Below are positions 19,622-28,289 of a stretch of DNA of 64,000 nt, one piece after another. This stretch comes from Chloroflexota bacterium. GTDB lineage: Bacteria; Chloroflexota; UBA11872. The stretch spans positions 1 through 64,000 of the forward strand of contig JAJEGF010000083.1 of the NCBI GenBank assembly GCA_022820025.1, written 5' to 3'. Position 1 is the first letter of the stretch; each line of letters opens with the position of its first letter. Position numbers and translations under genes: made by a program. Under the pieces are notes generated by a model. The model made no database searches. It had not been told where the DNA came from and saw nothing but the letters and a program-made list of their open reading frames with translations.

Positions 19622-20650
19622 TCATTCAGGCCGTCCTAGGCCTCCCAGCCAAAGCTCGAAGATGGTACTTGCTTCAGTGCACGGTGGTGGACTCCGGTGC
19701 ACTGAAACAAGTACCGGGTCGTTCAAGGCCAATTTCTCAGTCGCCTTCCCTGGAATCTGGCTATCGCTCGGCATAGGGACGGCGTATCTGAGGAGATCGT
19801 CGTCCGGTATGACGACGATCTCCTTGACGAAGGACTGGATGAAGGCCCTGCGCTCGGTCAGTTCGCTGTGCTTCAGAAAGTCTCTCATTTCCTTGGCGTA
19901 GGCCTCGACGGTATTCACGTCGTCCAGAACAGACCTGCGCTGGGTCAAGACTGCCCTGGCCGCCGACGCCTCGTCCTCAAGAAGCTCCTGCCGGTCCCGG
20001 AGTTCCCTGATGTGGTTTCTAGCGTCGGCCATATCGACATTGTGGGTCTCCCCGATGAAGTGCCAGATGCGCCTGAGGTGCCGCTTCACATCCTCGAGCT
20101 CCTCGTCAATGGTCTCCAGCCTCTTGTGCTGCTCGGCGGCCACCTTGTCCATCTTCTCGTCTACGGTCTTCACCAGGTCGCGGATGCTTCCCTCGGTGAG
20201 TATGTTGGAGCGAACCTTTCGGATGACGAACTTCTCGAATTGTCGAGCGTTGAGCCTCGGGGTGTCGCAGGACCCGCCGCCCCGCTTCATGAGGGTCTGA
20301 CAGACGTGGTATGGGAACTTTCCACTCTTGGCGTACAAGCCGGTGAGTGCCCGGTTGCAGGCCTTGCACTTGACCAGCCCGCTGAGAAGGAAGGGGGCTT
20401 GCTGCTCTGCGTGGGTTGACGATCTTGGGCGCACGGGAGCGCATCAGGTTGGACACACGGTGGAACTGGGCCTTGGACACAATCGCCGGGAACGCATCGT
20501 CCACCTTCACTGGGTCGGCCCCGTCCTTGGCGTTGACGCCCCACATCAAGGTGCCGGTGTACGTCTCGTTGATGAGGATTGCGTGGAGGGTCGTCTTGCC
20601 CCAGGGCTTACCCCTGGGCTGGCGATGTCTTGGTGGAGCGAGTCGGGTAC
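19622..20650 (-). pseudogene. Large serine recombinase, C-terminal fragment 2 (frameshifted)
   Basis: From about 20650 leftward: TTLHAILINETYTGTLMWGV and VKVDDAFPAIVSKAQFHRVS (recombinase domain), a frameshift near 20435, then the zinc ribbon (FLLSGLVKCKACNRALTGLY, later GGGSCDTPRL), the coiled coil (MDKVAAEQHKRLETIDEELE) and the C-terminal FLKHSELTERRAFIQSFVKE with VVIPDDDLLRYAVPMP. The N-terminal catalytic resolvase domain with the active Ser is missing: the left-reading gene is cut at about 20650 where the aspartic-protease remnant begins. It does not match fragment 1 closely, so it comes from a different element. Confidence 0.8.
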
Positions 20651-22784: not shown

Positions 22785-22860
22785 TGGTGGGCCGGGTGGG
22801 TCTCGAACCCACGACCTTCGGATTAAAAGTCCGCTGCTCTGCCAACTGAGCTACCAGCCC
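22785..22860 (-). tRNA. tRNA-Lys (anticodon UUU)
   Basis: 76 nt on the minus strand with encoded CCA. The 7-bp acceptor stem pairs GGGCTGG with CCGGCCC (one G-U pair). The D-arm is TAGCTCAGTTGGCAGAGC, the anticodon loop CTTTTAA with UUU at 34-36, and the T-arm GTGGGTTCGAGACCCAC. It marks the border between the decayed mosaic on its 3' side and the intact gene order on its 5' side. Confidence 0.97.
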
Positions 22861-22956: not shown

Positions 22957-23688
22957 ATGGGTGTACTGGACGGCAAGGTCGCGATTGTGACGGGATCGAA
23001 TCGCGGTATTGGACGCGGCATCGCTCGGGGCTTTGCACGCGAAGGGGCTAGGTTGGCGCTGGCCGCACGCGATGCCGCACTGCTGAACGAGGCGGCCGAT
23101 GAGTTCCGAAGCCTGGGTGCTGAGGCTGTGGTCATTCCGACCGACGTGACTGAGGAAGCGGCGGTTGACGCGCTGATCGAGCAGACCCTTGAACAGCTCG
23201 GCCCGTTGGACGTGCTGGTGAACAACGCGGGGATCGCCGAACACGCGCCGCTGGTAGACATGACGCTGGACGCCTGGCAGCGAACGGTGGACGTGAATCT
23301 GACCGGGCCGTTTCTGTGCGCCAGGGCCGCGTTGCGGGTGATGGCGGCGGCCGGGCGCGGACGCATCATCAACGTGGCCAGCATCTCGTCGCAGCGCGTG
23401 CGACCAGGTTCGGCCTCGTATAGCGCCACCAAGTTCGGCCTGTGGGGCCTGACCCAGGTGATTGCCCTGGAGGGCCGCGATCACGGGGTGTCGTGCAGCT
23501 GCCTCAACCCCGGCAACACCTGGGTGGAACGGCGAACCGGCACGCAGCGGCGCGAGGACGAGGAACCCATGATGACGGTGGACGAACTGGCCACCGCCGC
23601 CGTGACCATGGCCGCCATGCCCGATCACGTGAACATGCTGGAAGCCACCGTTCTACCGGTCGGCCAGCCATTTATCGGCCGGGGGTAG
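22957..23688 (+). CDS. SDR-family NAD(P)-dependent oxidoreductase
   Basis: 243 residues, the usual length for classical short-chain dehydrogenases. The Rossmann motif is VTGSNRGIGRGIA; NNAG is at about residue 89. The catalytic tetrad shows Asn in DVNLTGPF, Ser in ASISSQR, and Tyr/Lys in YSATK. The hydrophobic NVASISS strand and PG motif (NPGNTWVERR) are also present. The reaction is hydride transfer on an unidentified alcohol or ketone. It is monocistronic, the first intact gene right of tRNA-Lys. Confidence 0.9.
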   Translation: MGVLDGKVAIVTGSNRGIGRGIARGFAREGARLALAARDAALLNEAADEFRSLGAEAVVIPTDVTEEAAVDALIEQTLEQLGPLDVLVNNAGIAEHAPLVDMTLDAWQRTVDVNLTGPFLCARAALRVMAAAGRGRIINVASISSQRVRPGSASYSATKFGLWGLTQVIALEGRDHGVSCSCLNPGNTWVERRTGTQRREDEEPMMTVDELATAAVTMAAMPDHVNMLEATVLPVGQPFIGRG

Positions 23689-23736: not shown

Positions 23737-23752
23737 TGTTTCACGTGAAACA
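23737..23752. promoter_or_regulatory. parS chromosome-partition site
   Basis: A perfect 16-bp palindrome, TGTTTCACGTGAAACA, identical to the well-known ParB/Spo0J binding site of many bacteria. It lies in the gap between the SDR and DUF6807 genes. Such sites cluster near oriC, load ParB and nucleate the partition complex. No parA, parB or dnaA gene is in this window. Confidence 0.9.
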
Positions 23753-23830: not shown

Positions 23831-24760
23831 TCAGGAATCTCCGGCGCGGAAGCGCTGGAATTCGCCGGCGATGTCGGCGTCAATGTGATCGCCGTCGTGG
23901 ATGACGAACCTGACGGTCTGGTCCCAGGGGTGCTCGGCGGTGATCTCGATGGCCTGCATGCGCATGGTGCTGATGCAGAGGGAGCCGTAGTCGCGGACGA
24001 ACCAGGGGGCGCCGTCGAACGAGGCATCAGGGAGGACGCCGACGCCGGCGATCTTGTCGAAGGCGAGGGGGCCGTGGGCGTCGACCCAGTCGGCGGCCTG
24101 GTCGAAGATCTCGGCCTCGTTGGTACGGCCTTCGGAGTCCTTGATGACGCCGTCGTGGGTGACATGGAGGCGGTCGGCGAGGCGGACGCCGTAGTAGCTG
24201 TGCTTGGTGGGGCCGATGGTGACGCTGCCTGGCGACTTGGCCGAGCCGGCCACCGGCTTGCCGGGCAACGGAGTGCCGTCGGCCAGGCGTCCGGCGGGAG
24301 CGGACGGGCCGCCGCCGGGCACGAGTTGCGAGCGGACGGTGAGGAGGTTGGAGACGTCGCCGGGCTGGATGTCGGTGGTGCGGGTTTCGACCAGCATGAG
24401 GCGCCCGTCCGGGTCGCTCCAGTCGGGGGCGCCGCGCCACTCGAGGGTCTGGGTGACGCGCAGTTTGTCGGCGGCCAACTGTTCCCAGGAGGCGTCGATT
24501 TCGCGGATGGCGCCAGCGGTGCGGCCGCCGTAGGCGCGTTCGATGTAGAAGTTGTAGCCGCTGACTTCCTCGGCGGCGATCCAGATGGAGCGGTGGTGGG
24601 GGTGGTCGACGGGTGTCTCGTCGGTGACGGCCTGACCGGCGGGCGTGTAGACGGGATAGAGGTAGTTGCGGGTGTGGCCCTGGTTGAACGCGGTGATGAA
24701 GCGTCCGCCCCAGCTCACCATTCGGCGGGACTGCAATACGTCGATCGTGAACGCACTCAT
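23831..24760 (-). CDS. DUF6807 (PmoA-like) family protein
   Basis: 309 residues. The family hallmarks are YLYPVYTPAGQAVTDETPVD, the histidine cluster DHPHHRSIWIA, and the late aromatic PTKHSYYGVRLADRL. Proteins of this beta-rich family (formerly linked by name to methane monooxygenase) are common in genomes that degrade carbohydrates, often near oxidoreductases. The exact activity is unknown. No signal peptide is visible. The neighbouring SDR gene is convergent with it, and parS sits between them. Confidence 0.75.
   Translation of the reverse strand: MSAFTIDVLQSRRMVSWGGRFITAFNQGHTRNYLYPVYTPAGQAVTDETPVDHPHHRSIWIAAEEVSGYNFYIERAYGGRTAGAIREIDASWEQLAADKLRVTQTLEWRGAPDWSDPDGRLMLVETRTTDIQPGDVSNLLTVRSQLVPGGGPSAPAGRLADGTPLPGKPVAGSAKSPGSVTIGPTKHSYYGVRLADRLHVTHDGVIKDSEGRTNEAEIFDQAADWVDAHGPLAFDKIAGVGVLPDASFDGAPWFVRDYGSLCISTMRMQAIEITAEHPWDQTVRFVIHDGDHIDADIAGEFQRFRAGDS

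Positions 24761-27056: not shown

Positions 27057-28289
<1,233 letters not shown>

Follow-up and report, generated by a model that had tools for sequence, protein, structure and literature searches.

A lineage of Chloroflexota seems to have lost ParA, the usual motor partner in chromosome segregation, and then to have multiplied parS over about one third of its chromosome. The single parS in the window (the whole 64-kb stretch of DNA analysed here) looks genuine and is ordinary in itself; the pattern across the lineage is the unusual part. In general, as summarised in PMC7333895, ParB binds to parS and spreads, it recruits SMC, and it uses an N-terminal peptide to activate ParA. The explanation that we favour, and hold to be rather probable, is that ParB clamps load at the window's parS, as part of a broad origin domain serving SMC without a cognate ParA. 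We compared the window's genome (G000, 3.63 Mb in 92 contigs) with its genus, 13 genomes labelled G000 to G012. Leaving out G001 and G002 gives the 11-species clade referred to below. The comparison outside the genus covered 48 sampled genomes, and the sister genus is represented by six genomes, G013 and G015 among them.

The window's site, at 23737-23752, reads TGTTTCACGTGAAACA and has 0 mismatches to the consensus. It sits in a gap of 142 bases between converging SDR and DUF6807 ORFs, just as the original prediction of a perfect parS in an intergenic gap had it. The features around it are the following.

22785 to 22860, minus strand: tRNA-Lys(TTT), where a coding-poor stretch gives way to the conserved block with parS; it adjoins the SDR gene in relatives too.
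22957 to 23688, plus strand: SDR-family oxidoreductase gene, the left neighbour (Pfam adh_short, 6e-56); its orthologue lies beside the site in relatives.
23737 to 23752, no strand assigned: parS, exact 16-bp palindrome, putative ParB loading site (0 mismatches; 1 of 15 in the genome).
23831 to 24760, minus strand: DUF6807 gene, the right neighbour, converging on the site (Pfam DUF6807, 9e-43); its orthologue lies beside the site in relatives.
27057 to 28289, minus strand: metK, S-adenosylmethionine synthetase, the marker by which the locus was located in congeners, 3.3 kb from parS.

Under a first-order composition model derived from stretches of G000, exact matches are expected 3.3e-6 times per 64 kb and 1.8e-4 times per 3.63 Mb, which bears out the claim that a chance match was very unlikely; a shuffle expectation of 0.10 applies to matches with up to 3 mismatches, not to exact ones. 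No second match with three or fewer mismatches was found within the 64-kb window. Judged by its letters, the 16-mer is very probably a chromosomal parS, to which the segregation protein ParB would dock. Per-position conservation of the 16-mer was dropped as evidence because the aligned rows had been picked for having the exact site.

Elsewhere in the window, positions 1-22700 are coding-poor and mostly of lower GC, and this stretch ends at the tRNA-Lys (22785-22860). An ORF within it, at 19622-20434, carries a recombinase zinc-ribbon domain. The stretch looks like an element integrated at tRNA-Lys; we looked through the 64-kb window for a copy of the end of this tRNA gene and found none.

A whole-genome pattern scan gave 15 parS in G000, 11 exact and four with one mismatch, and the reversed pattern, used as a specificity control, gave 0 matches. 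The search for further copies therefore shows that the window's parS is not unique. Our own codon-score gene finder puts 12 of the 15 sites between genes. The sites on contigs C46 and C61 fall within ORFs, and the C54:4.4 kb site overlaps a predicted, possibly unreal ORF. The two sites inside ORFs weaken the favoured explanation. Could the palindrome instead be the operator of another regulator, its likeness to parS being coincidental? The window's parS does lie in an unremarkable gap between genes, and no par gene adjoins it. Yet the genes beside the 15 sites are unrelated (TyrRS, ProRS, TrpE and MFS, for example), the window's gap is flanked by converging genes, and the sister genus has the identical 16-mer beside parB, so that we consider an operator extremely improbable. 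That this same 16-mer lies just past parB in the sister genus backs the reading of the site as a ParB loading site, as do exact sites far above chance and positions kept between species.

Only one protein of G000 scores over the TIGR00180 cut-off for ParB. It is encoded on contig C34, adjoining the sole dnaA; a chromosomal-type parB thus stands beside dnaA, and the absence of ParB, which would have counted against the original prediction, is excluded. The protein has the ParB_N and HTH_ParB domains and keeps the motifs GERRWRAA and ENLQRRD as well as R173. Its best relative of solved structure, named ParB, matches at 5e-46, and its eight closest named ParB relatives come from Chloroflexi/Chloroflexota MAGs, at 75-94% identity. 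SMC scores over its cut-off in 12 of the 13 congeners, and in G000 its gene is split across two contig ends. Between parB and dnaA on G000:C34 (L070, 4605-4654) lie three DnaA-box-like 9-mers about 20 bases apart, two of them exact and the third with one mismatch; since DnaA boxes stand there, oriC of G000 is probably located between dnaA and parB. Similar triplets occur in G001 and G003.

Residue 201 of the G000 ParB, which faces the DNA, is Ser, not Gly, although Gly at this position is reported as absolutely conserved among ParB orthologues in PMC7383237. The 11 species of the clade all have Ser there, and Gly is found in G001, G002 and the six sister-genus rows. Gly201Ser was rejected as a change unique to the clade, for an Acidobacteria ParB (L027) and three divergent ParBs share Ser; because the Acidobacteria protein is of the ordinary type, the change is rare, not unique. 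In other Chloroflexi, three ParBs (L055, L056 and L059) have a linked ParA, specificity positions K/R/D/S and no parS nearby; they are probably of a different type reading another site.

The par locus is where the lineage departs from its relatives. In the sister genus the order dnaA-parA-parB is found in all six genomes, ParB starts with ALGRGL, and a parS lies 0.1 kb or less from the parB end in 6/6 (exact in five, one-mismatch in G015). G002, basal in the genus, retains both dnaA-parA-parB and ALGRGL. In contrast, 12 of the 13 congeners, G000 included, have no ParA beside parB, and a relaxed search of these 12 par loci for linked-parA remnants with G002 and G013 queries returned nothing convincing (best E 0.30). 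We scored the ParB N-terminus for LG[RK]G[hydrophobic], the N-terminal peptide of ParB being described in PMC12462528 as binding and activating ParA. The motif is present in 0/19 ParB rows from the 11 species and is missing in G001 too, whereas 46 of the 53 ParB rows outside the 11-species clade have it, including G002 and six sister-genus rows. The seven motif-less rows outside the clade are G001, two Pyrinomonadaceae and four in which the DNA-contact residues differ as well. ParB of G003 retains an LGKG stretch, perhaps a relic of the motif, which weakens the favoured explanation. As far as the proteins can be read, the link by which ParB activates ParA is missing in this lineage. The claim that the lineage uses ParABS is therefore doubtful: the linked parA and the ParB motif are missing, and what is clearly present is ParB, parS and SMC.

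In a DnaA tree of 19 rows, G002 branches off first within the genus and G001 second, ahead of the 11 species (supports 96/93 and 99/97). G001 and the 11 species have both lost the linked parA and the motif; multiplication of parS is confined to the 11. The exact copies number 11 in G000, 2 in G001, 0 in G002, 9 in G003, 11 in G004, 9 in G005, 9 in G006, 19 in G007, 12 in G008, 5 in G009, 17 in G010, 22 in G011 and 8 in G012, against 0-3 in the 48 sampled genomes outside the genus. The count of 0 in G002 comes from a genome only 76% complete, in which a two-mismatch site adjoins parB. Thus 11 of the 12 congeners without linked parA have 5-22 exact sites, the exception being G001. Since G001 is without parA and motif yet has 2 sites, loss alone does not multiply parS, and this exception weighs against the favoured explanation.

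A Soj-like ParA does persist elsewhere in the chromosome, adjoining ftsZ in 13/13 congeners, G002 included. It is about 95% or more identical across the 11 species, and Thermus Soj matches it at 3e-44. In G003 (L160 81-2031; C16, about 318 kb) this parA overlaps ftsZ or directly adjoins it, at about +239 kb from dnaA. The protein is possibly a MipZ-like or PomZ-like division regulator. Its persistence weakens the favoured explanation, since it might contact ParB in another way. Canonical ParABS might persist if the ftsZ-linked ParA serves ParB in trans. It could then be the segregation ATPase, or it could tie the ParB-bound origin to FtsZ in the manner of MipZ. The strong conservation of this Soj-like protein in the 11 species and its constant pairing with ftsZ speak for such a role, and PMC7333895 describes MipZ as a homologue of ParA with both ParB and FtsZ as binding partners. 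On the other hand, ParB lacks the known ParA-binding motif, and G002 carries both ParAs in separate clades, which makes the ftsZ-linked one an older paralogue. In the ParA tree, which carries a long-branch warning that extends to the linked ParA of G002, the ftsZ-linked proteins stand apart from the linked ParA proteins, those of G002 and the sister genus grouping at 100/100. The separate clades indicate that the linked parA was lost, not moved. Taken together, we regard service in trans, the chief alternative, as rather unlikely. A further, divergent ParA-type ATPase (L201) is found in G005 only, on a 35-kb contig (C56), and is perhaps plasmid-borne.

Because G000 is split into 92 contigs, its sites were mapped through the contigs of relatives, with two joined protein queries. 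Of the useful relatives G003 has the best assembly. Its contig C16 (535 kb) carries dnaA at 79 kb, has sites at -32, +55, +59, +125, +182 and +411 kb from it, and is colinear with contigs C34, C64 and C91 of G000. G006 C10 links ProRS, left of dnaA, to C54 markers, G006 C33 links C54 to C18, and G003 C13 holds the neighbourhoods of G000 C18, C46 and C61. On G003 C3, metK lies at 148 kb and the counterpart of the window's parS at 152.6 kb. The right-end marker of G003 C16 (ClpC-like by eye) is found on G011 C85 about 10 kb from the marker at the start of C3 (GyrA-like by eye), in an orientation matching a C16-C3 join. In the G003 frame this join puts the window's site roughly +609 kb from dnaA, about 18% of genome length away, and makes it the outermost on its arm. 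In G003, 12/12 sites fall between -438 and +609 kb of dnaA, about 31% of 3.4 Mb, on a map that relies on inferred contig joins with inter-contig gaps of unmeasured size and, for the right-arm join, on the one relative G011. These inferred joins weaken the favoured explanation. The C61 neighbourhood lies near -552 kb in G003, and the C61 site is missing from that genome.

The description of the window as origin-proximal is therefore too strong, since the site is some 609 kb from dnaA, but it does fall within the one third of the chromosome to which all the mapped sites belong. GC skew gave no usable signal as an origin marker, its sign flipping along both arms in stretches of known orientation, and so neither backs nor contradicts the placement. 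In the single-contig G001, metK is +58 kb from parB; we rejected this as proof of origin proximity and set the G001 map aside in favour of G003 and G011, because that genome is rearranged relative to the rest and neither SDR nor DUF6807 was found beside its metK. Tolerance zones for parS are given as about 600 kb in PMC7333895 and as about 650 kb (-200 to +450 kb) in PMC5098823, which also cites V. cholerae, where moving parS 650 kb away from oriC did no harm. In light of the latter, the distance of the window's site is not extraordinary by itself.

We next consider how far the sites are kept between species. By our own tally, made by adjacency to marker genes and allowing at most 1 mismatch, 12/15 G000 sites have a counterpart in G003, 12/15 in G006 and 13/15 in G010; the tally accounts for every one of the 12 sites in G003 and likewise of the 12 in G006, and G010 has 4 further. 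The parS coordinates in the genome labelled G062 are identical to those of G003. The C46 site, at 106832-106847 (L073 9001-9016), is a one-mismatch parS within an ORF that matches no Pfam family; in G003 the orthologous stretch, with its site at C13:90 kb, shows the identical one-mismatch form. A G010 site at C12:62 kb was ruled out as its orthologue, no alignment being found.

The window's locus was located in congeners with metK as the marker. The SDR-DUF6807 gap could be read in 7 of the 13, and it contains an exact parS in G000, G003, G010 and G011, a two-mismatch form in G005, and no parS in G006 and G008. The gap is unreadable in G004 and G012, where no SDR was found beside DUF6807, in G001 and G002, where no DUF6807 was found beside metK, and in G007 and G009, where the contig ends too early. 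The turnover seen here, with a two-mismatch remnant in one species and nothing in two others, is what one would expect if the extra parS were functionless, a surplus that arose and was tolerated under relaxed constraint after ParA was lost. Most sites, however, are common to species whose flanking DNA has diverged, and 12/12 G003 sites lie within a single third of the genome, which looks like selection on number and place alike. We therefore judge a functionless surplus improbable.

Under the favoured explanation, ParB dimers would load on parS as CTP-dependent clamps and then spread along the DNA, and the loaded ParB would help to load SMC. The roughly 15 parS would anchor one broad origin domain of about 1.05 Mb. 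The ParA-driven part would have been dismantled, the linked parA and the ParA-activating peptide at the ParB N-terminus both being gone, and after the loss of this ParA arm parS would have risen from 1-3 to 5-22 exact copies. More tentatively, with a probability that we set well below even, the centromere may have broken down stepwise, with the loss of parA and the peptide followed, in the 11 species only, by Gly201Ser and a spread of 5-22 parS across about 1 Mb. If ParA no longer pulled on each site, the rule confining parS to a narrow origin zone would lift, and ParB-parS would turn into a distributed SMC-loading and domain-organising system. The sequences show the sites and their map, ParB with its motifs, SMC, and the losses with their order; ParB binding, SMC loading, independence from ParA and a causal link from the losses to the multiplication are inferred.

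The system resembles chromosomal ParABS (Soj/Spo0J) in its parS 16-mer, in a ParB with CTP and HTH motifs beside dnaA, in the presence of SMC, and in sites loosely centred on the origin region (in G003, 12/12 from -438 to +609 kb). It differs in a par locus without parA, a ParB without the ParA-activating peptide, and a domain that extends over about 1.05 Mb, where PMC7333895 and PMC5098823 give a tolerance zone of about 600-650 kb. Streptococcus pneumoniae and Staphylococcus aureus, as reviewed in PMC7333895 and PMC7022226, likewise have ParB, parS and SMC with a locus lacking ParA; unlike S. pneumoniae, which is listed with 4 parS, the lineage has 5-22 exact sites, and unlike both it has an ftsZ-linked ParA paralogue. 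Copy numbers of about 20 parS are shared with Streptomyces coelicolor and Listeria innocua (20-23 in PMC7333895), which are cited there with the canonical system, whereas here multiplication follows the loss of linked parA. Noc of Firmicutes is also a ParB relative without the ParA-activating peptide, and the Noc model TIGR04285 gives 184.5 bits. This score is nevertheless below the cut-off of 315, the specificity residues of G000 are R-T-K-S, not Q-K-K-R, and the genomic sites are parS, not NBS.

Within the open-access literature on Chloroflexi/Chloroflexota ParB/parS or on ParB without ParA, we found no papers on this lineage. PMC7333895 names as open questions why parS number varies so widely and what keeps the sites near one another. 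The genus offers a natural experiment on both number and spacing, since the losses preceded the multiplication while the sister genus and G002 keep both the linked parA and the motif. It would thus be possible to test here whether pulling by ParA sets the zone in which parS is tolerated.
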